Positions 2-63,625 of a DNA stretch of 64,000 nt are shown here, one piece after another (positions within the stretch are counted from its first letter, which is position 1; each line of letters opens with the position of its first letter). This DNA comes from Solirubrum puertoriconensis (GTDB lineage Bacteria; Bacteroidota; Bacteroidia; Cytophagales; Hymenobacteraceae). The notes under the pieces were generated by a model. The model searched no databases and was not told the origin of the DNA. It worked only from the letters and a program-made list of their open reading frames with translations. The position numbers were made by a program, and so were the translations under genes. The stretch spans positions 496,003-560,002 of the forward strand of contig NZ_LNAL01000006.1 in the NCBI RefSeq assembly GCF_001483135.1, in the 5' to 3' direction.

Positions 2-757
2 GATGCCGTGGTGCAGGCCGAAGCCGGGTTTATGTACCTGAATGGCCAGCCGGGCGGCGAACCGCTCAAGATGCCCGTGGCCTTAATGGACTTGCTGGCG
101 GCCCATCAGCTAAAAGAAGGCCTGCTTACCGCTCTGTACCGGCGCGAGCGTACCGGCCTAGGTGCTTTGGTGCAAGTATCGTTGTGGGAAGCGGGCTTGG
201 CCTCGTTGGCCAACCAGGGCAGCACCTACCTTGCCACCGGCCACGACCCCAAACCCATGGGCTCAGGCCACCCCAGCATTGTGCCCTACGGCACCGTGTA
301 CCTAGGGGCCGATGGCGTTCGGCTGATTTTGGCCGTGGGCACCGACCGGCAGTTTCAGCAGCTATGCGAGGTGCTGGACCGACCGGAGTGGGCTGCCGAC
401 GAGCGGTTCCGGACGAACGGGGCGCGGGTGCAGCACCGGGCGGCGTTGGAAGCGTTGCTGCACGAGCGGATTGGGCACGTGCCCGGGGCCGAGTTGCTGG
501 CCGAACTAGCCCGGTTGGCCGTGCCGGCAGGGGCGGTGCGTACGGCCGGGCAAGCCTTGGCCGAACCATCTGCTGCGGGTATGCTGTTGTCGCCGCAAGC
601 CGGTTTTGCCCATGCCGGGCTGCGCACGGTAGCTTTCCGTAGCCCGCAGTGGCCAACTGCCGAGGCCTTGTCGGCGCCGCCGCACCTAGGCGAGCATACC
701 GCGGCTTTCGGAACGGCCGAGTGCGCATCGGGCGAAAACCAAACCCCAGCGAACTAA
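2..757 (+). CDS. CoA-transferase family III (CaiB/BaiF) protein, 5' end outside window
   Basis: The reading frame is already open at the left edge, so the N-terminal part is missing. The visible 251 residues match the family III CoA-transferase core: a DAVVQAEAGFMYLNG start like the family's conserved segment, then PVALMDLLAAH, whose Asp I align with the catalytic Asp of CaiB/Frc (inference), then TGLGALVQVSLWEAG and GSGHPSIVPYGTVY. Family members move CoA between carboxylic acids through an aspartyl-CoA anhydride intermediate. The substrate cannot be told from this part. The next gene begins about 90 bp downstream on the same strand. Confidence 0.85.
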   Translation, partial: DAVVQAEAGFMYLNGQPGGEPLKMPVALMDLLAAHQLKEGLLTALYRRERTGLGALVQVSLWEAGLASLANQGSTYLATGHDPKPMGSGHPSIVPYGTVYLGADGVRLILAVGTDRQFQQLCEVLDRPEWAADERFRTNGARVQHRAALEALLHERIGHVPGAELLAELARLAVPAGAVRTAGQALAEPSAAGMLLSPQAGFAHAGLRTVAFRSPQWPTAEALSAPPHLGEHTAAFGTAECASGENQTPAN

Positions 758-850
758 AGCTTCGTACCATTGCCTTATAGCTGTTCGTGTTTGGCAGCCC
801 TTAGGGTGCCAAACCTTCCACTGACCTAAACGGCGTATTGCCGCCCGCCT

Positions 851-1735
851 ATGCCTCAGGAAATAGAAAACGCCACGCCCTCCGCCGAATTTAACGAGAA
901 GCCCGGTACGCCCGCCGCCGAGCCCACTGCCCAAAGCCCCGTACCCGCCGAGCCCGAGGCAAGTGCCCCCGCCACCGACGAAACGGCGCAGGCCCAAGCC
1001 ACGCCCGAGCCGGTAGCCGCCGAAGCTCCGCACGAGGAGATAGAAGACAAGCTCGACATCATTTTCGAAGGGCTGCGCCAGAAATCGACCGCTAAGCAGG
1101 CCATCTTCCGCAACACGCAAGCCGCGTTTGAGTGCCTGCGCACCGTAACACAGGAGTTGGTGCTGGAGCTTACGCGCCGCATTTCAACCGTCGATTCGAG
1201 CGTGGTAATCGAGTACCGGCCCATCAACGAGTTCGAGTTCCACATCCGGTTTTCGGGCGATTTGCTGGTGTTTGTGATGCATTCCAACATCATTACCTTC
1301 CCCGACGACTTTCCGCTGTTCGGCTCGCGCTACGTAAACGACGACTTCCGCCGCCGCTTCTTCGGGCACATCATGGCCTACAACTTTATGGCCGACTCGA
1401 TTAAGTACCAGCGCATGAACGACCCCGGCTACCTCGTGGGCCGCTTGCTCGTCAACATCGAAAACCACTACTACATTGAAGGCGCCAAGCAACTCGAAAT
1501 GCCGGAAAACGACATGGAGCACAACGTCATCAACGAAGACGCCATGCGCCTGTATGTGGAAAGCGCCATGATTGCCGCCGTGAACAACGACCTGATGGCT
1601 CCCTCAATCCAGGACATTCAGAAGATTACCGTGAAGCAGAAGCTCGAAAACCAGCAAGTAAGCCGCGGCAGCAAAGTCGGCTTCAACTTCCGCAACGAGC
1701 AACGCCACGCCGGTTACGACGGTCTGATTTACTAG
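851..1735 (+). CDS. conserved hypothetical protein with acidic, Ala/Pro-rich N-terminus
   Basis: A 294-residue protein. Residues 1-60 are low-complexity and rich in Ala, Pro and Glu, probably a disordered tail. Residues from about 62 on form a compact domain starting EDKLDIIFEGLRQKSTAKQ and rich in aromatic residues. There is no signal peptide or membrane segment, so it is probably cytoplasmic. I recognise no catalytic motif; it looks like a conserved Cytophagales protein of unknown function. It converges on trpS, with a strong hairpin terminator between them. The ATG at 851 opens the frame and suits the domain layout, though a later start removing part of the tail cannot be excluded. Confidence 0.75.
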   Translation: MPQEIENATPSAEFNEKPGTPAAEPTAQSPVPAEPEASAPATDETAQAQATPEPVAAEAPHEEIEDKLDIIFEGLRQKSTAKQAIFRNTQAAFECLRTVTQELVLELTRRISTVDSSVVIEYRPINEFEFHIRFSGDLLVFVMHSNIITFPDDFPLFGSRYVNDDFRRRFFGHIMAYNFMADSIKYQRMNDPGYLVGRLLVNIENHYYIEGAKQLEMPENDMEHNVINEDAMRLYVESAMIAAVNNDLMAPSIQDIQKITVKQKLENQQVSRGSKVGFNFRNEQRHAGYDGLIY

Positions 1736-1745
1736 GGTGCTATCC

Positions 1746-1805
1746 GCAAAAACAAAGCGGGGCCGCTGTTCTGAACCCAGAACAGCGGCCCCGCTTTGTT
1801 TTTGC
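1746..1805. terminator. bidirectional Rho-independent terminator
   Basis: An almost perfect inverted repeat with arms of about 28 bp, a GC-rich middle (GCGGGGCCGCTGTTCTG) and a 4-base loop. A-rich and T-rich outer ends give a U tract on both strands. It lies between two convergent genes and should terminate both. Confidence 0.92.
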
Positions 1806-1815
1806 GTTGGCTGCG

Positions 1816-2793
1816 TTACCTAGGCAGGTAACCCACCCGCTCGCGCACTTTGTTAAGCACGTTGGTGCCGTAGGCCTGGGCCTTGCGGGCGCCCTCGGCC
1901 AAGCGCCGGTCAATTTCGGGCAGGTTTTCCATGTAGTAGCTAAACAGCTCGCGCTCCTTGGCAAAGCGCGTGCGGATCACCTCGTAGAGCGCCTGTTTGG
2001 CGTGGCCGTAGCCGTAGCCGCCGCGCAGGTAGTTTTCGCGCATCTCGGCAACCTCGGCCGGCGAGGCCAGCAGCGAAAACAGCTTGAACGTGGTATCGGT
2101 ATCGGGGTTTTTGGGGGCCTCGAGCGGGGTGCTGTCCGACACGATGCTGCGGATGTTCTTCAGCAAGGCTTTGTCGTCGAGGAAGATGTCGATGATGTTG
2201 CCGTACGACTTGCTCATCTTCTGCCCATCGAGGCCCGGAATGGTCTGAATTTGCTCGTCCACGCGGGCTTCGGGCAGCACGAAGGTTTCGCCGTAGCGGT
2301 TGTTGAAAGCCGAAGCAATGTCGCGCGTAATCTCGAGGTGCTGAATCTGATCTTTGCCCACGGGCACAAACTCGGCATCGTAGAGCAGGATGTCGGCGGC
2401 CATCAGCACGGGATAGGTAAACAAGCCCGCGTTTACATCCGCCAAGCGGCCCGATTTATCCTTAAACGAGTGCGCGTTGGCCAGCATCGGGTACGGCGTC
2501 AGGCACGAGAGGTACCACGTCAGCTCGGTTACCTGCGGCACATCCGACTGGCGGTAGAACAGGTTCTTGTCGGTATCGAAACCGCAGGCCAGCCACGCGG
2601 CGGCCACAGCGTAGGTGTTTTGGCGGAGCAATTCGGCATCGCGCACCGTGGTGAGCGAGTGCATATCAGCAATAAACAGCAGCGACTCGTTGCTGCTGTC
2701 TTTCGACAGCTCGATGGCTGGCAGAATGGCGCCGAGCAGGTTGCCTAGGTGCGGCCGGCCCGTGCTCTGAATGCCTGTAAGGATGCGGGACAT
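1816..2793 (-). CDS. trpS: tryptophan--tRNA ligase
   Basis: Class I aminoacyl-tRNA synthetase that charges tRNA-Trp with tryptophan using ATP. At 325 residues it has the normal bacterial length. The N-terminus MSRILTGIQSTGRPHLGN carries the HIGH-type nucleotide-binding signature (H-L-G-N, about residues 15-18). The KMSKS loop is at residues 192-196 in GLDGQKMSKSYGN. FVPVGKDQIQHLE is the typical dimer/active-site segment. The gene is monocistronic or first in its unit, and its 3' end abuts the bidirectional hairpin. Nothing unusual. Confidence 0.97.
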   Translation of the reverse strand: MSRILTGIQSTGRPHLGNLLGAILPAIELSKDSSNESLLFIADMHSLTTVRDAELLRQNTYAVAAAWLACGFDTDKNLFYRQSDVPQVTELTWYLSCLTPYPMLANAHSFKDKSGRLADVNAGLFTYPVLMAADILLYDAEFVPVGKDQIQHLEITRDIASAFNNRYGETFVLPEARVDEQIQTIPGLDGQKMSKSYGNIIDIFLDDKALLKNIRSIVSDSTPLEAPKNPDTDTTFKLFSLLASPAEVAEMRENYLRGGYGYGHAKQALYEVIRTRFAKERELFSYYMENLPEIDRRLAEGARKAQAYGTNVLNKVRERVGYLPR

Positions 2794-2808
2794 GTATGGA
2801 AGTAATTG

Positions 2809-3456
2809 TCAGTCTTGTTTGCCGGAAGATGTACCGATGCTGCTCAACGGGCAAGGTAAATTCCGATTCAGCGAGAGAATAACGGGAATCAACGTTTCCG
2901 GTGTTGCTATTTTTTCGTCGACCAGCTTCACCAGATCGGGGCGCGAAACCAAAAAAGGCCGAAGCATTTCGCGAAAATACGGGCCGCCGTTCCACCCGCC
3001 GGTGGTGAGGGCCGTGAGCGTGCTGTCCTTGGCCCATCTGATCAGGTATTCGGGCTTACTGGACGTGCCGCCCCCAACCATGCCACCTCCCGCTGTCATG
3101 TGCCCGGGCGAGCTAACGGCATAAGTGTAATTCAGCAACACCACTATGCCGCTATCTACTTGCTCCACAAAGGCTTTATCGACGTAGCTGCTGCCCAGAT
3201 TCACCAGAAAACCCTTGGCAACTGTGTATTTACGCCTGCCAATGCTGAAGGCGTGAACATCGTCGGGAGTCAATTTCAGGGTTTTTCCTTGCGCGTTCTT
3301 CACCGCAAGGGTGTTGCCGTCGCGCAACTTTAGCTCGCCGTTGTGCCGAACGGTTTGCTCTTTATTGAGAATGTAAGAGCCTGGCTTGAAGGTAGAGGAT
3401 TGGGCCATTGCGAGTGGCGCTACAAGCAAACCTAGGGCTAAGCACAATAAGCGCAT
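2809..3456 (-). CDS. secreted protein, member A of a three-gene tandem paralogue family
   Basis: 215 residues with a signal peptide (MRLLCLALGLLVAPLAMAQ). The mature part has a beta-rich N-terminal half: FKPGSYILN, then LTPDDVHAFSIGRRKYTVAKGF, then AFVEQVDSGIVVLL. The C-terminal half has RPDLVKLVDEKIATPETL. The same landmarks recur in the two genes at 3597 and 4269, so this is a local triplication. I recognise no enzymatic motif. The family is probably lineage-specific and exported to the periplasm or outer membrane. It lies 15 bp from the trpS start on the same strand, but the three paralogues have their own gaps (about 140 and 45 bp). Confidence 0.75.
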   Translation of the reverse strand: MRLLCLALGLLVAPLAMAQSSTFKPGSYILNKEQTVRHNGELKLRDGNTLAVKNAQGKTLKLTPDDVHAFSIGRRKYTVAKGFLVNLGSSYVDKAFVEQVDSGIVVLLNYTYAVSSPGHMTAGGGMVGGGTSSKPEYLIRWAKDSTLTALTTGGWNGGPYFREMLRPFLVSRPDLVKLVDEKIATPETLIPVILSLNRNLPCPLSSIGTSSGKQD

Positions 3457-3596
3457 ACAATTATCAAGAATAGAGAGAGTTGTGGGGTAGCAGCGAGTTT
3501 GTTACCCTCTATCTCCCCTTGCAAGGTTTTTTATTTGCTAGTGCGGCGGCCGGTAGCACTGTATATGCCCATGGGCACGCCGGAAAGCTAGAAAAG

Positions 3597-4223
3597 CTAT
3601 CGAGCTTGTTCGTTGGCTCGGCGAATGTATGTGGGAAAGGTTCTAAAGTTAGCAGTACCAGAACGCACTGCCTGCTGCAACTCGGGCCAAGGTTTTAGTT
3701 CTTCGGCCAACTCTAAGCGGTAATCTTTAGCCCAAGCTTGAAAGTTGTCAGGTCCCTGCACGAACTCTTTGTCGCCGCGGCGGCGCAGCAGGTAAATGGC
3801 AAAGCTTGCCATACCGCTAGAGCCCATGGGTTCAGCGGTACGAAAAAGCGCAAGCTGCAAATAGCCCGTCGTGTCGATGTACTCTATGAACGCATTTTCG
3901 GCGTGGTACTCGTGCCCACCCAACCCGGTGGTACCCATATAGTAATCGAAATTGCCAGCCGGCAGCAGCGTATGGCCATCGATGGTGAACGACTGCACTT
4001 CCGTGGCCTCGTACCTGGTGCCGCCCGGCCAACCTCCCACGAACAACTTCGACTTTTCGCGCGTGGAAAAAGTCAATTTATCAACGCCGGACTTGCCGTT
4101 GCGCAGCACGTAGGTGCCTTGCCCTTTCAGAGTCGACACTAGGTATTGGGCGTTGCCCACGCAAACAAAGCCACTTACAAACATTGCAGTTAAGAATAAT
4201 ACGCGTGTAATTGCGCTGTGCAT
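3597..4223 (-). CDS. secreted protein, member B of the tandem paralogue family
   Basis: 208 residues with a signal peptide ending near GNAQ. It shares the family skeleton with its neighbours: GTYVLRNG near the N-terminus, EVQSFTIDGHTLLPAGNF, AFIEYIDTTGYLQLALF, and a C-terminal PELQQAVRSG segment followed by an alpha-helical tail. It is more diverged than members A and C, and its C-terminal RPDLV motif has become PWPELQ. Function unknown. The middle copy is the most altered, which suggests an old duplication rather than a recent one. Confidence 0.72.
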   Translation of the reverse strand: MHSAITRVLFLTAMFVSGFVCVGNAQYLVSTLKGQGTYVLRNGKSGVDKLTFSTREKSKLFVGGWPGGTRYEATEVQSFTIDGHTLLPAGNFDYYMGTTGLGGHEYHAENAFIEYIDTTGYLQLALFRTAEPMGSSGMASFAIYLLRRRGDKEFVQGPDNFQAWAKDYRLELAEELKPWPELQQAVRSGTANFRTFPTYIRRANEQAR

Positions 4224-4268
4224 AATTAAGAATAGGTGGCCGGAAGAACTGATAAAATAGTTGCGACC

Positions 4269-4916
4269 CTAGGGGCGCGAAGATGTTGAGTTAGGAACGG
4301 GTTGGTAGGGTTGATTGCTGTTGAAAGCCTGAATGACGGCACGCAAATTATTTTCCGTTATGCGGCTTTGCTGAACCAGTTCAACTAAGTCAGGACGCGA
4401 AGCCAGATGAAGGGATAGTCCTTCCTGAAAGCGGCTGTTGCCCCACTGCGTACCCACGGGCAGAACCGTTACAGCGTAGCTGGCAGGCGACTGGAGCAAG
4501 TACATGTGGCGGCGCGTAAATGAAGCACCGGGGTATTTTGGATCGGTCATAACTTCATCCCGTTCCTTGTACTCGTAGCGCATCAGCATAATACAGCCAC
4601 TGTCGAGCACCGGAACAAAGGCCCTCGTAACGATGCCGCCGGTCAGTAGTTTGGTGCCGATGTTGAAGCTGCCAGCCGTCAGGTAGGCTTGTTTGCCGAT
4701 GCGGGCGTACGAAACTTCTTCAGGAGTAAGCTCGAGCGTTTTTACTTCTGGGTTTCGGACCAGCAGTAACTGCTTTTTCTCCTGAAGTTTTAGTTGTGCC
4801 GGGTAGCTGATGCGCGGATCCTTGCCCAGTATGTATGTCCCTGACTCAAAACGGGTAAACTGAGCCCGTAGCGCCTGCGGCAACAACAAGAGGAAAAAAA
4901 AGCAGTAAAGCTTCAT
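4269..4916 (-). CDS. secreted protein, member C of the tandem paralogue family
   Basis: 215 residues, starting at the ATG at 4916 (MKLYCFFFLLLLPQALRAQ, a good signal peptide); the frame can be extended one codon to a TTG. Family landmarks are FESGTYILG, VKTLELTPEEVSYARIGKQAYLTAG, AFVPVLDSGCIMLM and RPDLVELVQQSRITENNL, close to member A. No catalytic motif was recognised. It is transcribed in the same direction as its paralogues and the transporter gene upstream of it. Confidence 0.75.
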   Translation of the reverse strand: MKLYCFFFLLLLPQALRAQFTRFESGTYILGKDPRISYPAQLKLQEKKQLLLVRNPEVKTLELTPEEVSYARIGKQAYLTAGSFNIGTKLLTGGIVTRAFVPVLDSGCIMLMRYEYKERDEVMTDPKYPGASFTRRHMYLLQSPASYAVTVLPVGTQWGNSRFQEGLSLHLASRPDLVELVQQSRITENNLRAVIQAFNSNQPYQPVPNSTSSRP

Positions 4917-4938
4917 CAATTGAATAAGTATGGCGCAC

Positions 4939-5700
4939 TTACACGCTCACATTCGCCTCGGCCTCTTGCTGCAGCTCCACCGTTTCCTGCTTCCCTAGGT
5001 AGCGGTCGATGAGGGCGTGGGCGAAGTAGAGCACGGGCGTGAGCAGAATGGCGGCTGCGAATTTATACCAGTAGTTGGTGTTGGCCACGCTCAGGACTTG
5101 CTCGAAGCTCCAGTTGCCGAAAACATAAAAGGCTACGAACAGCACCACAAACGAATCGACGAGCTGCGACACGAGCGTGGAGCCGGTGGCGCGCAGCCAA
5201 ATGAGTCGGTTGCGCGTGATGCGGCGCAGCGCCTGGAACACCGTGGCGTCGAGAATCTGGCCGACCACGAAGGCTACAATGGACCCGATGATGATGTTGC
5301 CGCCCTGCCGAAAAATGCTCTGGTAGGCGAAGTCGATGTTGAAGGGGCGCCCTAGGTCGTCGGTTTTGTTGACATCGAGCCAGAAGGCCGCCGGCGGTAG
5401 CTTGGTAGTGGCGTAGATGATGCCAAAGGCATACAGAATAAGCCCGGCCGTAAGCAAGCTCACGCGCAACACGCCTTTGGGGCCGAAGTACTCGTTGAGA
5501 ATGTCGGTAGTAACGAACACCACCGGCCAGATGAGCACGCCGGCCGTGAGGTTGCCGGGCAAGCCCATTAGCTCATCAACCGAGAAAATTTTAACCCCGA
5601 TGATTTCGGCGAGCAGTGCATTAACCAGAAAAATGGCACTCAGAACAAGGTATAGTTGCTGCTTTTTGTGCGCAAACGAAGAAGTAGCGGTAATGCTCAT
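4939..5700 (-). CDS. yhhQ: queuosine precursor transporter (VUT/YhhQ family)
   Basis: 253-residue integral membrane protein with about six or seven hydrophobic segments. Family hallmarks are LVLSAIFLVNALLAEIIGVKIF at the N-terminus, VVFVTTDILNEYFG, a RQGGNIIIGSIVAFVVGQILD stretch and LVSQLVDSFVVLFVAFY. The YhhQ/VUT family imports queuosine precursors (preQ0/preQ1), which are inserted into tRNA. The C-terminus is a short charged Glu/Gln-rich tail. No other queuosine gene is adjacent. Confidence 0.88.
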   Translation of the reverse strand: MSITATSSFAHKKQQLYLVLSAIFLVNALLAEIIGVKIFSVDELMGLPGNLTAGVLIWPVVFVTTDILNEYFGPKGVLRVSLLTAGLILYAFGIIYATTKLPPAAFWLDVNKTDDLGRPFNIDFAYQSIFRQGGNIIIGSIVAFVVGQILDATVFQALRRITRNRLIWLRATGSTLVSQLVDSFVVLFVAFYVFGNWSFEQVLSVANTNYWYKFAAAILLTPVLYFAHALIDRYLGKQETVELQQEAEANVSV

Positions 5701-5843
5701 GGCGGAAAGGTATAGCGCCAGCCCCGAAAAGCCGCGCTATCGGGTGAGCTGGCACGCCGTAGCCGGTTGCTGAAATGAAGCGCCAGAAACGCTACCTAGG
5801 GCTGAGAGTCACGCCAAAGCAAGGTAGCGGAGCGGCACGGCTG

Positions 5844-6764
5844 TTAGAGGCTGGGCACCGCCACGGTTAAGCCTTCGATGGCAAGTTGGGTGTTCTCGAA
5901 CTCGCGTTTGGCTTCGGCTAGCAGGGGCTGCAAATCGCGGTACCGCGACGAAAAGTGCCCGATGATCAGCTGCTTTACCTCGGCTAGGCGGGCAAACTGG
6001 CCGGCTTGCCGGGCCGTGGAGTGGCCTGTTTGCTGGGCGCGGTCGAGCATCTCGTGCAAAAACGTCGCCTCGTGGTACAGCAAATCGGCGCCGCGCACGG
6101 CATCGGCGAGGTTTTCCTGAAAAATGCTGTCGGCGCAGTAGGCGTAGGAGCGGGGTGGGGCCGGGGCCGTGGTTACGTCGGTGTGGCGCAAGAGCACGTG
6201 GCCGGCTTCGTCGTGCAGGTCCTGGCCGCGGGTTAGGGCTTGCAGCTGCTCGGGCGTGAGGCCGGCCGGCAAGCTTTCCTTGAGCAGGCGGCGGCGGCGG
6301 GGCTGCTCCCGAAACAGGTAGCCGCAGCAGGGTATGCGGTGGCGCATGGGCAAGGTATACACCTGCACCGAGGCGTCTTCAAAAATCAGTTGATGGCGCT
6401 CGGTATCCACGGCCGTAAACTCCACATCGAAGGCGAGCGGGGTGCCGGAGCAGCGCAGCTGCGTGGTAATTATTTCATCGAGCCCGGTGGGGCCGTAAAT
6501 GTGCAGCGGCTCTTGGCGGCCTTGCAGGTGCAGGGTACCTAGGAGGCCAAACAGGCCAAAAAAATGGTCGCCGTGCAGGTGCGAAATAAAGATGCGGTTG
6601 ATGCGCCCGAAACGAATGCGCTGCTCGATGAGGCGCTCTTGCGTAGCCTCGCCGCAATCAATCAGGTAGGGCTCGCGGCCCACCGTAAGCACTTGTGCCG
6701 TGTGGTGGCGCCCCAGCATGGGAGTGGCCGAGGCGCTGCCGAGGATGGTTAACTCGAACTCCAA
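5844..6764 (-). CDS. rnz: ribonuclease Z
   Basis: 306-residue metallo-beta-lactamase-fold endonuclease that trims the 3' trailer of tRNA precursors. The zinc-binding HLHGDH motif is at residues 62-67. The N-terminus LTILGSASATPMLGRHHTAQ is typical of the family. Later zinc ligands are seen in YCADS, LYHEATFLHEM and IIGHFSSRY. The length equals the family norm. A STAS protein gene lies upstream on the same strand, separated by a strong inverted repeat, a pairing I recall from related Cytophagales. Confidence 0.95.
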   Translation of the reverse strand: MEFELTILGSASATPMLGRHHTAQVLTVGREPYLIDCGEATQERLIEQRIRFGRINRIFISHLHGDHFFGLFGLLGTLHLQGRQEPLHIYGPTGLDEIITTQLRCSGTPLAFDVEFTAVDTERHQLIFEDASVQVYTLPMRHRIPCCGYLFREQPRRRRLLKESLPAGLTPEQLQALTRGQDLHDEAGHVLLRHTDVTTAPAPPRSYAYCADSIFQENLADAVRGADLLYHEATFLHEMLDRAQQTGHSTARQAGQFARLAEVKQLIIGHFSSRYRDLQPLLAEAKREFENTQLAIEGLTVAVPSL

Positions 6765-6830
6765 GTTTGTTGCCCGTTGCGAAATGTCAGGGGGGAAAGA
6801 GCGGCTTTGGGAAGACGGCCGAAAAACAGA

Positions 6831-6877
6831 GAAGGTTGTCAGTTATCAGCTTGTGGCACTGACAACTGACAACCTTC
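6831..6877. repeat. 19-bp inverted repeat between the STAS gene and rnz
   Basis: The arms (GAAGGTTGTCAGTTATCAG and its near-perfect complement) differ at one base and enclose a 9-base loop. A further partial copy (ACTGACAAC) follows at about 6879. There is no U tract on the side where rnz is transcribed, so it may be a processing or attenuation hairpin rather than a full terminator. It could also be a small dispersed repeat. Confidence 0.7.
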
Positions 6878-6898
6878 CGACTGACAACGAATCAAAAA

Positions 6899-7273
6899 CT
6901 ATTCCTTGTTGGTAAGGTCGCGCTCGATGGCGTGCAGGAAAATGCGGTCGATGCCTTCCTCCACGGTGGGCAGAATGTGCAGTACCGACTCCAGCTTGGA
7001 GATGGTGATCAGCTTCATCACGTGATCTTGCAGGCCGGTGAGTACCAGCAGGCCGCCCGTTGAGTTGCAGAGGCGGTTGGCAATCAGGATAGAGCTCAGT
7101 CCCGACGAATCGGTGTACTTCACATTTTGCAGGTCGAGGATCAGGTTGTTGATGCCTTCGGCGTTGAGCTTCACGAACTCCGATTTCAGATCGGGCGCGA
7201 CGGTAGTGTCGAGCTTTTTCTCGTCAATCGTAATAATCGTGTAGTTCTCTTTTTTATCAATGGAGTACTTCAT
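6899..7273 (-). CDS. STAS-domain anti-sigma-factor antagonist-like protein
   Basis: 124 residues forming a single STAS domain (SpoIIAA/RsbV fold). The phosphorylatable serine is in YTDSSGLSSIL (about residues 56-66), preceded by the typical LILDLQNV strand. Members are phosphorylated by a switch kinase and bind partner proteins when dephosphorylated. No kinase or sigma factor gene is adjacent, so its partner is unknown. Its base composition is a little lower in G+C than its surroundings, as is common for this conserved gene. Confidence 0.88.
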   Translation of the reverse strand: MKYSIDKKENYTIITIDEKKLDTTVAPDLKSEFVKLNAEGINNLILDLQNVKYTDSSGLSSILIANRLCNSTGGLLVLTGLQDHVMKLITISKLESVLHILPTVEEGIDRIFLHAIERDLTNKE

Positions 7274-7351
7274 ACGGGACGTCTTCGGTAGTACGTGGGA
7301 GTTGCGAAGGTAGTAAAAAAATGAATGTCTGAATCTAAGGGAAATCAGGCA

Positions 7352-8194: not shown

Positions 8195-8282
8195 TCAACA
8201 AAGATCGGCCAAACGCAAACAATCCGCAGAAGATTACGGTATAGGTGTTGTTTAATGTTTAAGGGTAAAAGTTTAAACAAAC

Positions 8283-9314: not shown

Positions 9315-9342
9315 GCACGTGCCCTAGGTACCTAACCACGCA

Positions 9343-9377
9343 AAAGGCCGCTGCCAATTCTGGCAGCGGCCTTTTTG
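9343..9377. terminator. bidirectional Rho-independent terminator
   Basis: The inverted repeat AAAAGGCCGCTGCCA...TGGCAGCGGCCTTTTT has a 15-bp stem and a 5-base loop. A and T runs are on opposite sides, so it can serve both the fasciclin gene and the convergent glycogen synthase gene. Confidence 0.92.
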
Positions 9378-9392
9378 TATTGTGGTGCGGGG

Positions 9393-16987: not shown

Positions 16988-16989
16988 CG

Positions 16990-53342: not shown

Positions 53343-53346
53343 CCGA

Positions 53347-54298: not shown

Positions 54299-54480
54299 TA
54301 GTACCGCCCTGCTGAGCAGCGCGGCCACGCCACTACAACGCAGTGGATTGGCCGCGCCGGCTTGCTTACCTTCAGGCGCCACCGCCCTAGGGCAAGCTCG
54401 CCACACGGCGGCTATGCTCCCGCGCAGGCTAGGTTGTTTTACTGGTCGGCAATTCAGGAACCGACACATTGCAGTTGCCC

Positions 54481-55611: not shown

Positions 55612-55643
55612 GTTTAAACCTATCCTGATTACCCCACACATTC

Positions 55644-56435: not shown

Positions 56436-56444
56436 TGCTCTGCT

Positions 56445-57062
56445 ATGAGCCCGGCCCTGCAAAACCAGCCCACGCGCCGCTACAGCCCTACGTTGGTGCG
56501 GGTAGCTTACTGGGTGTCCACCCTAGGTAATCCGCTGTTTACGGCTTTGGTGTTTGTGGGCGTGCTGGCGTTTCGGCTGCTCGAGGTGCGCGTGGCGGCT
56601 TGGCTTATGGCGGGCATGCTGCTGGGAGTGGCCGCACCGATGTCAATCTGGAACTACCGGCAGGTAAAAACCGGCGCCTACACCGATTTCGACGTATCGG
56701 TGCGCGAACACCGGGCCTCGTTTTACCCTAGGTTAATTGTGCTTTTGGGCGTGGCCACCGCGCTTGTGTGGGCTACGCCATCGGCGGCGCCGCTGCGCGC
56801 CGGTATGTTGGCTGCCCTGGGTTTGCTAGTAGCTTGTTACGGTATCAACTTTCGGCTGAAAGTATCGCTGCACGCGGCGCTGTCGTTTTTTATGGCGGGC
56901 TGCGTGTTGGGCTTGAATCAGGCGTGGGGCCTAGGTGCCTTGCTGGTGGCTAGCTTGGTAGCAGCCTCGCGCCTTGTGCTGAAGCGGCACTCGTTGATTG
57001 AGTTGGTTGTGGGTACTGTGGTCGGGATGGGAGCGGCCTTGCTGGCAGTAATAATAGCGTAA
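56445..57062 (+). CDS. PAP2-like membrane phosphatase
   Basis: 205 residues with six membrane segments. The helix-loop region has NFRLKVSLHAALSFFMAG, in which the His replaces the PSGH motif position of classic PAP2 enzymes, and SRLVLKRHSLIELVVGT near the end holds the second Arg/His pair. This short Bacteroidota version is often annotated as PAP2 phosphatase acting on lipid diphosphates. It is 9 bp from the LytTR gene, so co-transcribed and perhaps under that regulator's control. Confidence 0.78.
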   Translation: MSPALQNQPTRRYSPTLVRVAYWVSTLGNPLFTALVFVGVLAFRLLEVRVAAWLMAGMLLGVAAPMSIWNYRQVKTGAYTDFDVSVREHRASFYPRLIVLLGVATALVWATPSAAPLRAGMLAALGLLVACYGINFRLKVSLHAALSFFMAGCVLGLNQAWGLGALLVASLVAASRLVLKRHSLIELVVGTVVGMGAALLAVIIA

Positions 57063-57157
57063 CCGAATGGTAGTTGAAGAATAGGGTAAAGCCTTATAAG
57101 TAGAAAAGCTAGCGTTGAGCGAAGCAAATAAACATAACACGACTTATAGTGCCACGC

Positions 57158-57640
57158 TCACAGGCCAATCCAGTTAAAAAGGGAATGAACCAACAGGAGG
57201 TAGAGTGCCGTAGCCAGTAAGGCATAGAGCGTGTGGATGCTTACTCGATGGGCGGCCAGCTCTTGTCGCCACGAACCCGCGTTACGCTCGACATTAACCA
57301 CTTGCGTGCGCGCGATGTAATCGCCTAGCCGCTTCTGTCCCGTAATGACCACCGCCAATACTTCCAGTGGCCACGCCAGCACGGTGGTATTGCGTAAGAA
57401 AGACTGCCACTCGTTGGCCGGAAGACCGGACGCCGTTTGCACCTGCGTGCCGATGGCCCGCTTGAGAGGGCTGCGGCCGAGGAGGAAGTCTTTGTTCAAG
57501 TAAAGCGCGAGCAAACAGTAGAATATCCAGTCGCCAGCAAGAGGCTGAAAGAGCATGAGGGGCAACCCTAGCAGGGTTAAAGCGATGTGCTCCCCCAACA
57601 TAGAGAGCAAGCGGCGTTTTCGGTTGTCAGGCACGATCAT
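57158..57640 (-). CDS. RDD-family membrane protein
   Basis: 160 residues with three or four membrane segments. The RDD-like centre is LGRSPLKRAIGTQVQTASGLP, then FLRNTTVLAWPLEVLAVV, then GQKRLGDYIARTQVVNVE. Members are small transporter-like proteins of unclear substrate. It lacks the N-terminal R-x-x-DD helix of full family members. It converges on the PAP2 gene across 95 bp with no clear hairpin. Confidence 0.7.
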   Translation of the reverse strand: MIVPDNRKRRLLSMLGEHIALTLLGLPLMLFQPLAGDWIFYCLLALYLNKDFLLGRSPLKRAIGTQVQTASGLPANEWQSFLRNTTVLAWPLEVLAVVITGQKRLGDYIARTQVVNVERNAGSWRQELAAHRVSIHTLYALLATALYLLLVHSLFNWIGL

Positions 57641-58305
57641 CAGGGAAGAGCGGCTGGGAAAAGGTCCGCTAAATTATACATAGCTTCTGGCCCTTCATTG
57701 AGTGACGGGTTGTACCTTTTCCAAGATGACTCATTACCATAATGGCTCTTGTGCGACCGGCTCCGAATGAGTTTTAGACATGCTTAGCTGTTCGAATTAT
57801 GCCTCTTGCTTTCGAACAAGACGCAGGCCTACCCATCATGGATGGAAGATCGTGAATCGAGGCAACGTAAGGTCAGCGCGGCCACTCGCTTCTACTTGCC
57901 AAATTCCTTTCCCCGTTTCGAATGCGGGGGAAGCGCACACCAGCAATGTTTGACGCTAAAGTGCCCCGGTAATTGGCAAACGATTCAAGTGGATTAAGTT
58001 GCCCGTTTGGGCATAGCGGCCACTAACCACTGTTTCCGATAACAATCTAGCAAAAGTAAAAAGGTGCCGTCAGCACGAAATTCTAAGCCCGTACCGGCAA
58101 CACCTGCCCAGCCGCTGCCTATGCCTGCTCCTGATACTACCGAACTCGAACAAACCCTAGGTCAGGAAAGAGCGCCCGAAGCCGCCCTCGAAGAGGCGCT
58201 GACCGATTTGGGCCAGCGCCTCTTCGAGGGCGGTGCTTTCTGTAAACTAACCTCGTGCAGCTTGATGACCGCGGGGGTGCAGGCTACCAAGTTGTCTAAC
58301 CGGTT
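57641..58305. other. gene-poor region with inverted repeat, possible remnants
   Basis: Lower in G+C than most of the window. Short frames at 57806-57997 and 58064-58309 lack homologue-like patterns. The second is Glu/Ala-rich and runs into the 19-bp inverted repeat at 58183-58232. I see no reliable gene. Confidence 0.4.
58183..58232. repeat. perfect 19-bp inverted repeat
   Basis: CGCCCTCGAAGAGGCGCTG and its exact complement are separated by 12 bases. No T tract follows. It might be a terminator relic, a transposon end or a recombination site. Confidence 0.65.
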
Positions 58306-58464
58306 TTAGAGGGCGATGATGGACTCTATTTGCAGCTCTTCGGGAAAGTGCGCGAAGAAATGCTCGAGGTAGTAGCCTAGAGAGTCGCCGCAATCGGTTA
58401 GCAGAATGGTAGAATCGCGCAGGTTATTCTTCTCGTGGCCGCAAAGCTGTCCATAGCTATCCAC
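58306..58464 (-). pseudogene. possible small gene or fragment downstream of the methyltransferase
   Basis: An open frame continues in phase for 95 codons after the TGA of the methyltransferase gene at 58591. It contains no ATG until MVDSYGQLCGHEKNN (58464). The 53-residue product (TDCGDSLGYYLEHFFAHFPEE) has protein-like composition, but I recognise no family. It may be a short hypothetical protein or a remnant. Confidence 0.3.
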
Positions 58465-58590
58465 CATGTCCTCCCACGAAACGCGGTTTCGGTGTGGGTA
58501 GGTAAGACACCGATTGTATAAGGTTGGGTAAAGGTGGAGAAGCAAATGGCTTGTTGCGGAGGTAAATGTTGAGATGGTAGCGGCCCTAGG

Positions 58591-59814
58591 TCAGAGCACC
58601 AGGAACTCGCCCCGGAAGCCCAACTGCCGGGCTTGCTCCTGGATTTCGGGCGCGTAGGTTGGGTTGCTGATAAACACCACGTCGGGGCGGTACGCCATTA
58701 GCTGCTCGGGCGCTATTACCGGGTGCGCGGTGCGCGGCATAAACTTGCTTTGGCGGCGCGGGTTAATGTCGACTATCGCTACTACGGTATCGTTCAGGTC
58801 GAACGTGTTGAGGAAGGTAACGGCGCGCCCCCCGGCGGCCCAGCCTACCACGCGCTTGCCGCTGCGGCGCAGCACCGCTACCCGAAGTTGCCACTCCGCA
58901 ATTACCTCCTCGGCGGCGCTGGCAAAGGCGCGCACCGCCACGGGCGTGGAGGGGTCGTGGGTGGGCGGCAGGGCGGCGGGGTTGTCTAGCGGCATGCCGG
59001 CGGGGCGGGCTACCAGGCTGATGTACTCGTCGTGCCAGCAGGGGTGCACCTCCAGCACCTCGAACCCGCAGCTCCGGAACAAGTACGCCAACGATTGCGG
59101 TGTAAACCACGCCGAATGCTCGTTTTCGATGTTCCAGACCACTTGCTCGCCGATGTCGTAAAGGGCGTTGGGCACTTCGAAGTAAACCAAAGGCTGCTCG
59201 CTCTCCGGAATGGCCCGGCGCAGCGTACGCACAAACTCGGCCTGGTGCGAGGCAATAATGTCGAGCATGTGGCGGCAGCTGATGAGCGATGCGCCGCGTA
59301 GCTCCTCCACCTTGTCGGGCCCGAAAAAGTCTTTGATAAAGCGCAGGTTGGCGGGGTCGGTTTGCCCTTCCCTGGGTGCGTAGCCCGGGTCGATGCCCAG
59401 GCCCGAGCCCATGCCCGCGCGCAGCAGCGTGCGCAGGAAGTCGCCGTCGCCGCAGCCGATGTCCACCACGCGTTTGCCTGCCAGGTTATAACGCTGCACC
59501 AGGTCCTCACCCAGCCCATCGGTGAAGGCTTTGAAGGAAGGTGAAAACTCCAGCGTGAAATCGTTGCGGATGTGGGTAACCTTGGCCGGCTCGTAAACTT
59601 CGTTGACAATGAAATGGCAGTGCGGGCAAAACGACAGGCGCACGTCGGTAATGGGCGCGTGCAGAGCCGCCTCACGTGTAGGCCACAAAATGCCGGTTTG
59701 CGCGGTTACATCGCGCAACTCGTAGAATATCTCACAATCGTTGGTGCCGCACACCGCGCAGGGTTTGGTGGCAGCCACGCGCGGGCTGACCTCCGGTAAT
59801 GCCTGGGTTTCCAT
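58591..59814 (-). CDS. class I SAM methyltransferase, sugar C-methyltransferase type
   Basis: 407 residues. The N-terminal zinc-binding module has CAVCGTNDCE and FCPHCHF. The SAM-binding core has KRVVDIGCGDGDFLRTLL. The C-terminal putative sugar-binding domain has KRVVGWAAGGRAVTFLNTF, VVAIVDINPRRQSKFMP and VVFISNPTYAPEI (Methyltransf_14 type). Family members C-methylate NDP-sugars in surface-polysaccharide pathways. It is the last gene of the leftward polysaccharide set. A shorter relative with the same three-part layout is at 61607. Confidence 0.88.
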   Translation of the reverse strand: METQALPEVSPRVAATKPCAVCGTNDCEIFYELRDVTAQTGILWPTREAALHAPITDVRLSFCPHCHFIVNEVYEPAKVTHIRNDFTLEFSPSFKAFTDGLGEDLVQRYNLAGKRVVDIGCGDGDFLRTLLRAGMGSGLGIDPGYAPREGQTDPANLRFIKDFFGPDKVEELRGASLISCRHMLDIIASHQAEFVRTLRRAIPESEQPLVYFEVPNALYDIGEQVVWNIENEHSAWFTPQSLAYLFRSCGFEVLEVHPCWHDEYISLVARPAGMPLDNPAALPPTHDPSTPVAVRAFASAAEEVIAEWQLRVAVLRRSGKRVVGWAAGGRAVTFLNTFDLNDTVVAIVDINPRRQSKFMPRTAHPVIAPEQLMAYRPDVVFISNPTYAPEIQEQARQLGFRGEFLVL

Positions 59815-59859
59815 AGGTTAACTGTCTAAGTGAAGCGGTTGGAGATGAGAGCGTACGCA

Positions 59860-59968
59860 TCAGGTCAGCGCCAGCAGCCCGGCGTAGGGCGCACGTGGCC
59901 CGAGGCAGCAACCCAAACTCAATGCCCGAGCGCTCGGCTACGTCGAGGAGGGTGTATTGTCATTCGGA
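59860..59968 (-). pseudogene. remnant of a DUF4910-type gene (3' end)
   Basis: The frame reads YTLLDVAERSGIEFGLLPRA and, after a one-base frameshift, AGLLALT followed by TGA. This matches the C-terminal winged-helix end of DUF4910 proteins, which occur beside PIG-L, methyltransferase and cytidylyltransferase genes in polysaccharide loci. Only about 35 codons are left; the rest is absent. The recognition is from memory of the family, so moderately certain. Confidence 0.45.
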
Positions 59969-60020
59969 TCCTAGGTGCCTGGGGCGGCTACCCTGGCAGG
60001 GGCAAGTGAGCTGGACTGGC

Positions 60021-60686
60021 TCAGAGCACCAGTTTGCGCACGTAAAAGGCCTCGGCATAGCGCCCGGCCGAAGCGGCTTGCAGTCCGCGCAGCCGGGGCA
60101 GTGCCCGGAAGGTCTCGGCATCGAACCAATGCCGGCCCGCCTGCGAAGGGAAGTGCGTCAGCAGCAGCTCTACCTTTTGGTCGAGCACGTCGCCAGGCAG
60201 CTCCACAAAGCACTCCGGGTTGCCCACGTCGCCGTCGTACTTCGGAATCTCGTACTCCAGTACCAGGTGGCTGCGGAACGTGTTCCAGGTAAAGTCGGCC
60301 AACAGGCGGTGGTCCTGGTGCAGGTCGTGGCGGTGGTGGGTAAAAATCAGGTCGGGCTGAAAGGCTTTCAGGTCTTCAAACACGTGCTTCACCTCCAGCG
60401 CCGATTGGGGTAGCCGCCCGTCCTGAAACGTCAACACCCGCACCTGCGCTTCGGCGAGGCCCCCGGGGGCAGCCGCCAGCCACGCGCAAGCGCTGGCTTC
60501 GGCCTCGAGCAACCGCGCCGGAGTGCTGGTGAATACCACCCAGCACAGGGCCGCAATGCGCTGCTCGCGCAACAGGCGCAGCAGCGTGCCGCCCGCGCCA
60601 ATCTCGATGTCGTCGGCGTGGGCACCTAGGCAGAGCACGCGCAGGCCAGCACTGCCCGCCGGCGGCGCTAAACTCAGCGTCAGCAT
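60021..60686 (-). CDS. PIG-L family deacetylase
   Basis: 221 residues from the ATG at 60686 (MLTLSLAPPAGSAGLRVLC), which overlaps the stop of the upstream nucleotidyltransferase gene in an ATG-C-TGA arrangement. The zinc-binding core GAHADDIEIGAGGTL and HHRHDLHQDHR are the two family motifs. PIG-L enzymes deacetylate N-acetyl sugars. In this operon the substrate is probably a sugar nucleotide or lipid-linked sugar (inference). Confidence 0.92.
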   Translation of the reverse strand: MLTLSLAPPAGSAGLRVLCLGAHADDIEIGAGGTLLRLLREQRIAALCWVVFTSTPARLLEAEASACAWLAAAPGGLAEAQVRVLTFQDGRLPQSALEVKHVFEDLKAFQPDLIFTHHRHDLHQDHRLLADFTWNTFRSHLVLEYEIPKYDGDVGNPECFVELPGDVLDQKVELLLTHFPSQAGRHWFDAETFRALPRLRGLQAASAGRYAEAFYVRKLVL

Positions 60687-61504
60687 GCGGCTTTTAGTGC
60701 GTGGGTCAGGTACCGGGGCTTGGGCTCGGGCCGGCGCCACACTTCCCACGGCGCCGGGCCGCGAGCGTGCAGTTCGTCGAGGAGCTGCTTGTCCTTAAAG
60801 GTGTCCATGGCGGCCCAAAAGCCTTGGTGTGGATGCGCCCTCAGGCGGTCCTGCGCGATTAGGCGCTGGAAGGGCTGCTCCACCAATTCCTCGCCGGGCT
60901 GCATATAGTGGAAAATGTCGGGGCGCAGCACGAAAAAGCCTGCATTGATCCATAGCCCTGATTGGGCAATGGGGCTGATGTATTCTACGCGCGAGTCTTC
61001 GCCCAGCGCCACCACGTGAAAGCTCTGCGACGGCTGGTAGGCCATGAAGCTGGCCACGGCGTTCGTCTGCGCCATTTCGTGCACCATCTGGTTCACGTCT
61101 AGGTCGGCCAGGCCATCGGCGTAGTTAGCCAGGAACATGTCTTCGTTTGCCAGCAGGTGCTGCACGGCCAGCAGGCGCTGCCCGATGTTGGCGTTCAGGC
61201 CGGTGTCAACGAAGGTGATGTTCCAGTCGTCGATATCGGTTTTGAGGGGCCTTACGTCCTTGCCCCCCTTCGAAAACACAAAGTCGTTGGAAATGCACTC
61301 GTCGTAGTTTCGGAAGTAGTGCTTGATGGTATCGGCCTTGTAGCCCAGGCACAGGATGAAATCGGTGTGGCCGAAGTGCGCGTAATAGCGCATGATGTGC
61401 CACAGGATGGGCCGGTAGCCCAGCGTTACCATGGGCTTGGGCATCGATTCGGAATACTCGCGCAGGCGCATTCCAAAGCCTCCGCAGAACAACACAACCT
61501 TCAT
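60680..61504 (-). CDS. sugar-nucleotide (glucose-1-phosphate) nucleotidyltransferase
   Basis: 274 residues. The N-terminus MKVVLFCGGFGMRLREYSES has the NTP-binding loop (CGGFGMRL); MPKPMVTLGYRPILWHIM is the next conserved segment, with YADGLADLDVNQ (metal Asp) and INAGFFVL later. It resembles glucose-1-phosphate cytidylyltransferase (RfbF), but the sugar and base specificity cannot be read with certainty. The C-terminus GFWAAMDTFKDKQLLDEL matches the family. The PIG-L gene overlaps its stop, so the two are translationally coupled. Confidence 0.85.
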   Translation of the reverse strand: MKVVLFCGGFGMRLREYSESMPKPMVTLGYRPILWHIMRYYAHFGHTDFILCLGYKADTIKHYFRNYDECISNDFVFSKGGKDVRPLKTDIDDWNITFVDTGLNANIGQRLLAVQHLLANEDMFLANYADGLADLDVNQMVHEMAQTNAVASFMAYQPSQSFHVVALGEDSRVEYISPIAQSGLWINAGFFVLRPDIFHYMQPGEELVEQPFQRLIAQDRLRAHPHQGFWAAMDTFKDKQLLDELHARGPAPWEVWRRPEPKPRYLTHALKAAC

Positions 61505-61606
61505 AGACGGGACGGGTTAAGAGTGGCAAACTGCCGGGAGCAGCAGTGCTAGGGGGTACCGGGCGGCACCGCACAACGTGAATCGGGACCGGCGGCCCCA
61601 CACAGC

Positions 61607-62938
61607 TTAGTCGTACACGGCCACCATTGGGATGGGCACCACGAAGCGCCCGCCCCACTGGCGGATGTCGGCCATTTGCTGCATGATTTCGGCGCGCAGG
61701 TTCCAGGGCAGAATCAGCACGAAGTCGGGGCGCGTTTGGCGGATACGGTCGGGGTGGTAAATGGGAATGCGCGAGCCGGGCAAAAACAGCCCGTGCTTGT
61801 GGGGGTTAGCGTCGACGGTGTAGTCGAGAAAATCGGTGCGGATGCCGCAGTAGTTGAGCAGGGTGTTGCCCTTGCCGGGGGCGCCGTAGCCCACCACGGT
61901 TTTGCCGGCCCGCTTAACCTCGATGAGGAAGCTGAGCAAGGCGCGCTTGGTTTCCTTGACGGCTTCGCTGAAGGCCGTATAAAACGGCAGCGTGTTCACG
62001 CCAAGCTCTATTTCGCGCTGGCGCAGCTCCGCCACCCGCGCCTCCACCGGGCGGGCATCGTCGGTGGCGTGGCGGGCATAGATGCGCAGCGAGCCGCCGT
62101 GGGTGGGCAGTTCCTCCACGTCGAAGAGGGTAAGGCCGTGGTGAGCAAAAATGCGCTCTACGGTGTAAAACGAGAGGTAGCTGAAATGCTCGTGGTAGAT
62201 GGTATCGAACTGCCGCCCTTCAATCAGGCGCAGCAAGTGCGGAAATTCCATCGTGAGCACCCCGCCGGGCTTAAGCATGATTTTGAGCCCGCCCACAAAA
62301 TCGTTGATGTCGGGCACGTGGGCTAGCACGTTGTTGCCGATCAGCAAATCGGCCTGCCCGTAGGTTGAAGCTACTTCTTGGGCCGTGCGGCGCCCGAAAA
62401 ACTTGCTGAGGGTGTTGATGCCCTTGCTGCGGGCGGCGTCGGCTACGTTGCCGGCCGGCTCGATGCCGAGCACCGGAATGTCTCGCTCGAGAAAGTACTG
62501 CAGCAGGTAACCGTCGTTGCTGGCCACTTCCACCACAAACTCCTCCGGCCCGATGCCAAAGCGGGTAACCATTTGCTCGGTGTAGCGGCGGGCGTGGGCC
62601 AGCCACGTGGTGGAGTACGAGGAGAAGTAGCAGTATTCGTCGCGGAAGATTTTATCGGCCGGCAAAAAGTCGCCGACCTGCACCAGAAAGCAGCTGCCGC
62701 ACACGCGGGCGTGCAGCGGGTACTGGGCCTCGGCCCGGTTGAAGTCCTCGGGCCGCACAAAATCCTCGCACAAGGGCGACGTGCCCAGGTCGACCAGGGT
62801 GGTGTGCAGCGCCTCGCCGCAGAAGCGGCAGCGGGGTTCCATCGCGGGTTGCACTGCATGGGGCAGCGGATTGCGCCGGTTTTTTTGCGTGGCCGCGGGC
62901 AGCGGGGCGGCCGATGCGGTAGGTAGTGTTGCAGTCAT
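61607..62938 (-). CDS. class I SAM methyltransferase, NDP-hexose C-methyltransferase type
   Basis: 443 residues, with a possible later ATG at 62842 if the Ala/Pro-rich first 32 residues are not translated. Zinc-binding CRFCGE and VCGSCF opens the protein. The SAM site is VVEVASNDGYLLQYF, then NNVLAHVPDINDFV, MEFPHLL and HEHFSYLSF, as in TylCIII/NovU-type C-3-methyltransferases. The C-terminal third (VVGYGAPGKGNTLLNYCG) is Methyltransf_14. It is the first complete gene of the leftward polysaccharide unit, followed 102 bp on by the nucleotidyltransferase. Confidence 0.9.
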   Translation of the reverse strand: MTATLPTASAAPLPAATQKNRRNPLPHAVQPAMEPRCRFCGEALHTTLVDLGTSPLCEDFVRPEDFNRAEAQYPLHARVCGSCFLVQVGDFLPADKIFRDEYCYFSSYSTTWLAHARRYTEQMVTRFGIGPEEFVVEVASNDGYLLQYFLERDIPVLGIEPAGNVADAARSKGINTLSKFFGRRTAQEVASTYGQADLLIGNNVLAHVPDINDFVGGLKIMLKPGGVLTMEFPHLLRLIEGRQFDTIYHEHFSYLSFYTVERIFAHHGLTLFDVEELPTHGGSLRIYARHATDDARPVEARVAELRQREIELGVNTLPFYTAFSEAVKETKRALLSFLIEVKRAGKTVVGYGAPGKGNTLLNYCGIRTDFLDYTVDANPHKHGLFLPGSRIPIYHPDRIRQTRPDFVLILPWNLRAEIMQQMADIRQWGGRFVVPIPMVAVYD

Positions 62939-62949
62939 CAGCAGACTAT

Positions 62950-63385
62950 TTTGTGGTCAGATGATAAAGTGGCACGAGCGCGTGCCCGACCAATGCGGGG
63001 TAGCACACGTCGGTACCGACTTGCAGTATGAGCAAGCCCTAGGTGAAGAGGACCGGCTTGAACAGCATCCAGAAGGATGTATCCGTTCGCGCTACGCCCG
63101 CCTACTGGCTGTCGGTAATTAGCTTCTTGCCTAGGTTCACAATCACGTGGTAGGTGGCGCCGCGGGGGCAGAGTACCCGCTTGATTTCGGCGCAAGGCTC
63201 CTGCTGCATGTGCAGGGCGCGCAACATACCCCGGCGCAGATTCGACAACGAATTGTCTTGCACCGAGGCAGCCCGGTTTTCGTAGGTATCAAACTCGATT
63301 TAGCACTACGAGCGGGCAATCAAGTCCCGTCCATCGGCCATACGCCTCGCATCGAAGATGAAAACGCTAGGTAGCTCGTATTGTG
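62950..63385 (-). pseudogene. decayed dTDP-4-dehydrorhamnose 3,5-epimerase-type gene (rfbC-like)
   Basis: Reading leftward the fragments FDARRMADGRGL, SVQDNSLSNLRRGMLRALHM, EIKRVLCP and, after a frame change, RGATYHVIVNLGKK and LLILQVGTDVCY line up in order with RfbC-type cupin epimerases. Two or more in-frame stops and several frame changes interrupt it. It is plainly non-functional. Confidence 0.6.
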
Positions 63386-63625
63386 GAAATTATGCAGTGT
63401 GGATGGTTGCAACTGCCGGAGCAGCTGGCCGGGCGTAAGGTGGGTGCTACTTCGGCACCTAGGGGCCGTGGCAAGCAGGGGGGACGGCCTGGCGCAGCCG
63501 CCGAAGCCGATAAAGCGTTAGTTGAAGGTGCGGATGGTGGGCACGGTAACTCGCCCGCCGACAAGGGCTGCACCGGCGCCAAGAGGACTTGTGCCAGCAA
63601 CGGGTCGGCTGCGGCGGGTTCGTCG

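Follow-up and report, generated by a model that had tools for sequence, protein, structure and literature searches.

The heptamer CCTAGGT is over-represented across the Solirubrum puertoriconensis genome and shows an on/off distribution, with flank dialects, among its relatives

Results

Abundance and distribution of the motif

The genome of Solirubrum puertoriconensis (Hymenobacteraceae; 4.80 Mb, here G000) is densely and evenly marked by the heptamer CCTAGGT, a word present in thousands of copies in some close relatives and almost missing from others, with counterparts in further lineages that share the CTAG core but differ in its flanks. The window, by which we mean the whole analysed stretch of 64,000 nucleotides (contig NZ_LNAL01000006.1, positions 496,003 to 560,002; G000:C6:496003-560002; 60.3% G+C), holds 96 CCTAGG by exact scan, where composition predicts 20.8. 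The original prediction, made from the letters alone, had counted about 96 by eye against about 21 expected, and the effect turns out to be larger than it claimed. T follows without a preceding A in 51 of these hexamers, A precedes without a following T in 39, three have both and three neither; hence 93 of 96 carry at least one of the flanks, agreeing with the earlier statement that nearly all do, and 90 carry exactly one. Summed over both strands, the window has 96 CCTAGGT (54 + 42, the three two-flank sites counting twice), as compared to 5.9 from a second-order Markov model. Genome-wide, CCTAGG occurs 6,212 times and its letter-reversed control 136 times, while CCTAGGT occurs 2,962 + 2,861 times (5,823 over both strands; reversed control 39 + 33, together 72), equivalent to about one per 800 letters. 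Among all 7-mers in a 464 kb sample of G000, CCTAGGT has the top excess score (594 versus 42 expected, 1.28 per kb). The genome-wide count of the excess, set beforehand as the test on which the claim could fail, thus left it standing, and the over-representation is confirmed.

Within the genus, three of eight genomes (G000, G005 and G006) hold 5,096-5,823 CCTAGGT and the other five 35-93. Over 40-60 kb of the orthologous region, at about 78% aligned identity, four of the five poor genomes have no copy and the fifth has one, and G005 and G006 have 84 and 80 in 60 kb. At the level of the family, CCTAGGT exceeds 5,000 in eight of 204 genomes and reaches at most 666 in every other. Some CCTAGGT-poor genomes harbor other CTAG-cored words, with G093 having CCCTAGGG; SSCTAGSS occurs at least 3,000 times in 11 of the 204, seven of these additional to the eight CCTAGGT-rich ones, bringing the genomes rich in a CTAG-cored motif to 15 of 204 by counts. 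An order-level genome, G036 (807 CCTAGG), displayed no such motif in the 36 kb examined. Pooled CTAG in the five poor same-genus genomes amounts to 0.18 of expectation, and across 80 named loci it spans 0.02 to 1.19; the value of 0.11 for the named poor group comes from loci chosen for low CTAG, and hence is not an average.

Half-site counts in sampled stretches, too thin in G064, G066, G068 and G158 for a call, separate at least five flank dialects among the rich genomes. SCCTAGGT is that of G000, where, as in G005 and G006, GT is paired with GG or GC. The genomes G053, G059 and G144 use GT/GT and CT/GT, G109 and G125 use GG/GT, GC/GT and GC/GG, and G093 uses GG/GG and GC/GG. GC/GC is found in 22 kb loci of H. 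fodinae and H. wooponensis, and CC/CC with CC/CG in G122, G143 and loci L159 and L181. Five further loci (L185, L140, L134, L164 and L174) have CTAG at 0.53-0.85 of expectation and no clear flank preference, and may be decayed or nascent dialects. A tree built from 88 marker proteins implies at least seven changes (gains or losses) of the CTAG-rich state, four of them forced by well-supported branches, with rich here meaning CTAG at 0.7 of expectation or more in the stretch sampled, G000, G005 and G006 being set rich by decision and H. mucosus scoring as rich despite lacking a clear flank preference.

Specificity and spacing

Relative to composition, the excess is confined to the perfect word. 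SCCTAGGT exceeds its compositional expectation 14-fold in G000 and stands at 0.05 in poor relatives, while its one-mismatch forms are not enriched in G000 (1.06-fold; 0.96 in G005 and G006 together, 0.61 in poor relatives). Sites are moreover evenly spaced: with a motif-poor stretch, L059, excluded, the variance/mean of site counts in G000 is 0.80, 0.69 and 0.56 in windows of 1, 2 and 4 kb, respectively, values as low being reached by 0 of 120 control hexamers of similar abundance at each size, and the coefficient of variation of the gaps is 0.88 (two-flank sites merged). In six further rich-genome sets, 17 of 18 variance/mean values fall below 1 (range 0.36-1.21; control words were run for G000 only). 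The excluded stretch (G000:C8:700001-720000) has just five motifs in 20 kb and encodes two large proteins with weak RHS-repeat matches; its paucity of motifs may mark it as an acquired island.

Orientation and coding context

The original prediction had called the motif oriented, and this holds in one of two senses. Each site tends to carry a single T flank: in the 464 kb sample of G000, GT/GT two-flank sites number 26 versus 143 if half-sites were independent, and the deficit recurs in G005 and G006 (4 versus 67) and in G109 and G125 (8 versus 22), whereas half-sites combine randomly in G053, G059 and G144 and in G093. The word is thus truly asymmetric in the G000 clade. As a strand bias the claim does not stand, since forward and reverse copies in G000 are nearly balanced (2,962 versus 2,861). 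Chi is strand-biased, yet no skew of the type of Chi or of the FtsK-orienting polar sequences (KOPS) was detected for CCTAGGT from the whole-genome counts or from neighboring sites, which share orientation in 257 of 521 pairs of the sample (origin and terminus not mapped). Because there is no overall strand bias, the segregation signal proposed earlier is not supported.

By mechanically called open reading frames (ORFs) of the same sample, 440 sites fall in coding DNA, at 1.10 per kb, while the 154 that lie between ORFs or at their ends reach 2.47 per kb. This higher density between genes supports the earlier proposal of an action on DNA rather than on protein. CTA lies in frame ahead of GG in 382 of the 440 coding sites (224 CTA-GGT and 158 in the other orientation), bearing out the claimed Leu-Gly reading, and the remaining 58 are Pro-Arg. 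CTA-GGT makes up 249 of 1,240 Leu-Gly pairs, and CTA accounts for 9.4% of leucine codons in the sample as compared to 4.1% in poor relatives. Of 155 TAG stops of called ORFs, 20 lie inside a motif, versus 0 of 83 in poor relatives.

Extra-chromosomal contigs

Most of the extra contigs sampled are poor in sites. The small contigs of G005 and G006 have five motifs in the 263 kb sampled, against 1.3 per kb on the chromosomes; of the five contigs concerned, three code for conjugation proteins with TraG or coupling-protein domains, one has none among the proteins scanned and one was not scanned. G122 shows its own dialect at 0.10-0.23 per kb on extra contigs versus 1.09, and in G000 a 259 kb contig has 0.18 and a 12.5 kb contig 0.16 motifs per kb. 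G144 is mixed, with 1.05 CCTAGGT per kb in 20 kb of extra contig C5 and 0.1-0.4 on the other five. Contig G006:C3 is almost free of GATC, unlike the G006 chromosome, which suggests that it arrived recently; the contrast between chromosome and extra contigs may therefore reflect age, not exclusion. An 11 kb G005 contig coding for a conjugation coupling protein also carries the gene for a MerT-like mercury transporter that has a heavy-metal domain (L220:5168-6100).

Site turnover between genomes

For 47 sites with an aligned poor orthologue, the orthologues depart from the motif at 124 positions in all. Transitions account for 65 of these differences and transversions for 59; the commonest class is C>T (40), but with so many transversions one mutagenic process alone, such as the deamination of cytosine, is unlikely. 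A poor orthologue is mostly two or three substitutions away from the motif, of every class and on either branch. Sites are moderately maintained, with marked turnover: G005 retains 41 of 66 alignable sites as compared to 347 of 798 composition-matched heptamers (43.5%), and G006 41 of 68 versus 406 of 870 (46.7%). Sites found in only one rich genome tend to keep away from shared ones, a weak effect: 31% lie within 300 bp of a shared site in G005 versus 45% for random placement (P 0.065), and 26% versus 42% in G006 (P 0.03), whereas a test on mean distance between unique and shared sites gave P 0.04 and 0.19, respectively.

Candidate machinery

Three methyltransferase families, C5-type (PF00145), N4/N6-type (PF01555) and D12 (PF02086), were sought in 22 genomes, and the Eco57I-type family (PF07669) and the type IV pilus/type II secretion ATPase (PF00437) in 26. 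The 22 were chosen before the dialects were known, with G093, G064 and G143 entering as CCTAGGT-low and being counted as rich after SSCTAGSS. PF00145 was not found in 8, PF01555 in 6 and PF02086 in 11 of the 11 rich genomes searched, and PF07669 was not found over its cut-off in 3 of 15. Rich G005 has no match over cut-off to any of the four, and the only G000 match is an N4/N6 DNA methyltransferase (L214:5493-6386) on the 12.5 kb contig, which also codes for a Rep3 initiator and for a coupling protein of the TraG/TraD type. None of these families tracks the motif, and all four were rejected as its cause; the methyltransferase mark of the original prediction has so far found no support.

PF00437 was over cut-off in none of the 26 Hymenobacter genomes, rich or poor, the single sub-cut-off match being in G143 (19.2 bits), while the search control was detected in 14 of 14 cases and over cut-off in 13. 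A type IV pilus link was accordingly rejected, leaving the earlier uptake-like idea unsupported along its known route. ComEC is uninformative as a discriminator between rich and poor because its domain occurs in 203 of 204 family genomes and is missing only from one that is 82% complete.

Discussion

The pattern resembles HIP1 (highly iterated palindrome 1, GCGATCGC) and the alternate HIPs of cyanobacteria, so far without a methyltransferase link. As described in PMC4390886 and PMC3025956, these too are short, palindrome-cored words at about one per kb, over-represented, patchy among relatives and with alternate spellings, and they are treated as scarce in recently acquired genes; the density in G000 falls within the range of roughly 0.5-2.5 per kb that PMC4390886 gives for HIPs. 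CCTAGGT is not HIP1 proper, being another word in a host that is no cyanobacterium but belongs to the Bacteroidota. The core is CTAG instead of GATC/CGATCG, and while the CCTAGG core is palindromic the full word of the G000 clade is asymmetric, as judged from the GT/GT deficit. Its one-mismatch forms are not enriched over composition, unlike those of HIP1 (PMC1939737). The original comparison to HIP1 as a genome motif is nonetheless strengthened by copy number, the on/off pattern in relatives, intergenic density and even spacing. The likeness to Chi of E. coli (GCTGGTGG) is limited to being a short over-represented chromosomal word, as CCTAGGT lacks overall strand bias and is on/off within a genus, and its 14-fold enrichment exceeds that of Chi (1,008 over 151 expected; PMC1939737 Table 6).

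Our leading explanation, held tentatively, is that CCTAGGT is a HIP-type genome signal that is ratchet-like or favors a nearby site. A putative accessory, lineage-specific DNA reader would recognize a short CTAG-cored word strictly, and a new site would gain an advantage either by repair or conversion biased towards the site-bearing strand, or by selection for a close site. Ordinary substitutions would then accumulate sites up to about 1.3 per kb, beyond which extra ones would bring little. A change of the reader's flank preference would let the genome drift to another dialect, and its loss would let the sites decay. The existence of one accessory reader, its repair link and the ratchet itself are what we infer from several observations. 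The specificity is sharp, and a flat one-mismatch class next to a 14-fold perfect word is expected if favor acts only on the last step. Variance/mean below 1 and the tendency of unique sites to lie away from shared ones point to negative density feedback. The higher density between genes places the action at the DNA level, no single lesion chemistry accounts for the substitutions, the rich state behaves as an accessory one (15 of 204 genomes, at least four forced changes) and the dialects share CTAG. The density is moreover near the saturation of roughly one per 1000 nt of Elhai's mismatch-repair ratchet for HIP (PMC4390886).

Several points weigh against such a signal. Retention is just moderately higher than for matched heptamers, some rich genomes are less evenly marked (G005, for instance, has a variance/mean of 1.21 in 4 kb windows), and one-mismatch forms, though flat, are still higher in G000 than in poor relatives (1.06 versus 0.61). 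For the 10-base HIP1 word such forms are about elevenfold enriched (1,830 versus 160; PMC1939737 Table 6). Extra contigs of the same assemblies are mostly without the motif, and cell-wide repair should not spare them if they have not just arrived. A methyl mark is part of what Elhai's ratchet requires, yet the four methyltransferase families do not track the motif. Finally, no reader gene was identified among the four methyltransferase families, PF00437 and ComEC, in a search that included neither an unbiased comparison of gene content nor repair genes, Vsr or methyltransferases of Type I and MT-A70. A fuller proposition is that of a new self-spreading genome signal, in which strictly read CTAG-cored words with switchable dialects are set down at a regulated density across Hymenobacter chromosomes by a reader that moves horizontally and belongs neither to the methyltransferases nor to the uptake receptors based on pili; taken whole, it is less likely than not.

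Other explanations fit parts of the data. Rather doubtful is a DNA uptake signal, in which competent cells would prefer motif DNA and homologous recombination would spread it by molecular drive, with an outer-membrane receptor other than type IV pilin. The best-known uptake sequences occur at about one per kb. An asymmetric, evenly spaced heptamer at some 1.3 per kb on both strands, rich on the chromosome and poor on most extra contigs, would suit such a role, and ComEC is available in nearly all genomes. Dialects around a fixed core are also described for the DNA uptake sequences (DUS) of Neisseriaceae (PMC3630211), which, as the uptake signal sequences (USS) of Pasteurellaceae, share the non-palindromic reading on both strands. 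In another member of the Bacteroidota, Riemerella columbina, transformation was competed by own DNA but not by equal amounts of R. anatipestifer or E. coli DNA, although tenfold foreign DNA did compete; an uptake role of the words frequent in its genome is left by that paper to further study (PMC7965970). On the other hand, no type IV pilus-type ATPase exceeds its cut-off in the 26 genomes, ComEC does not separate rich from poor, and the word spans 7-8 bases with flat one-mismatch forms, whereas those of the Pasteurellaceae word are about elevenfold enriched (947 versus 86; PMC1939737 Table 6), a 10-base word and hence only roughly comparable.

Less probable again is a mark of methylation or another modification, with an enzyme outside the tested families modifying the CTAG word and selection keeping the sites. 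The core is palindromic, and GCTAGC is the NheI site. CCTAGG is a restriction site as well (PMC1939737), and cyanobacterial HIPs generally have a matching methyltransferase (PMC4390886). This is countered by the rich genomes lacking PF00145, PF01555, PF02086 or PF07669, by G005 with none of the four over cut-off, and by the location of the sole G000 enzyme on the 12.5 kb contig. Binding by a nucleoid protein, with the motif serving partition or chromosome architecture, would account for the regular spacing and the scarcity off the chromosome; we consider it quite improbable in view of the on/off state between close relatives and the change of dialect, and a KOPS-like pointer it is not, because strand bias is absent. 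An ordinary origin in codon usage, base composition or faulty assembly can be dismissed with near certainty: CTA-GGT does lie in Leu-Gly codons, but the density is higher between genes than within, orthologous DNA of five same-genus genomes has 0-1 copies, and the motif recurs in separate assemblies and in several dialects, so that the counts refute it.

The finding itself stands regardless of mechanism. In the literature searched, which excludes bioRxiv preprints and most subscription journals, we found no description of a comparable motif for Hymenobacter and no paper that names CCTAGG together with this genus. The on/off pattern and the dialects point to a DNA-reading system that shapes whole chromosomes, and one genus-level group constitutes a natural experiment, also for the long-standing question of what HIP1 does, with relatives of about 78% aligned identity having thousands of sites or almost none, several dialects and mostly siteless extra contigs. 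The reader can therefore be searched for by gene content, and its role tested.

Sites in the window and further observations

The 51 sites with T after and no A before (157..63136, + strand) have CCTAGG starting at 157, 2744, 4994, 5351, 7686, 8073, 9323, 9736, 11466, 12190, 14394, 15153, 15579, 18442, 21428, 21951, 22829, 23841, 24495, 25527, 27272, 28155, 28868, 31682, 32759, 34155, 34610, 35733, 40948, 42204, 42735, 42900, 43797, 44314, 47018, 47116, 49059, 49225, 51164, 51983, 52331, 53529, 54001, 56522, 56727, 56930, 58156, 58585, 59970, 63038 and 63130. The 39 in opposite orientation (300..63463, - strand, ACCTAGG on the + strand) have theirs at 301, 685, 1819, 3431, 5795, 6538, 11602, 12025, 13327, 14117, 14890, 15411, 15789, 16997, 17300, 17678, 19061, 20218, 21282, 23342, 24453, 26034, 26732, 29233, 29464, 30395, 32057, 32489, 36212, 39197, 40980, 41601, 42067, 45042, 47958, 48587, 53034, 60625 and 63458. 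The three two-flank sites (ACCTAGGT; 26923..46446, no strand assigned) have CCTAGG at 26924, 45642 and 46440, and the three flankless hexamers (4268..54391, likewise unstranded) start at 4268, 31856 and 54386.

Projection onto orthologues illustrates the turnover at individual + strand sites. At 9736..9742, rich G005, G006, G053, G059 and G144 also read CCTAGGT, each of the five poor same-genus genomes reads CCCAGGT, and rich G109 and G125 read CCCATGT. At 4994..5000, CCTAGGT is present in all seven other aligned rich genomes, and the five poor ones have CCCAGGT, CCAAGGT or CCCAAGT. Several substitutions separate the states at 12190..12196, where G005 and G006 read CCTAGGT and the five poor genomes read GGCATGC, GCCATCG or GCCATGC. 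From the ORF and site lists, the TAG of the motif at 35733..35739 (+ strand) is the stop codon of the ORF at 34691-35737.

GATC is wholly missing from 27 of the 80 named loci (L112-L191; each at most about 22 kb), nearly all from one large Hymenobacter clade, and G060 has a single SSGATCSS in 5.4 Mb versus 550 SSCTAGSS. Extra contig C2 of G122 is also at 0.00 of the GATC expectation, so the purge has the look of restriction and seems unrelated to the CTAG motif. Lastly, the window encodes a CYP152 fatty-acid peroxygenase (CypC type; 42984-44318), scoring over the curated cut-off.

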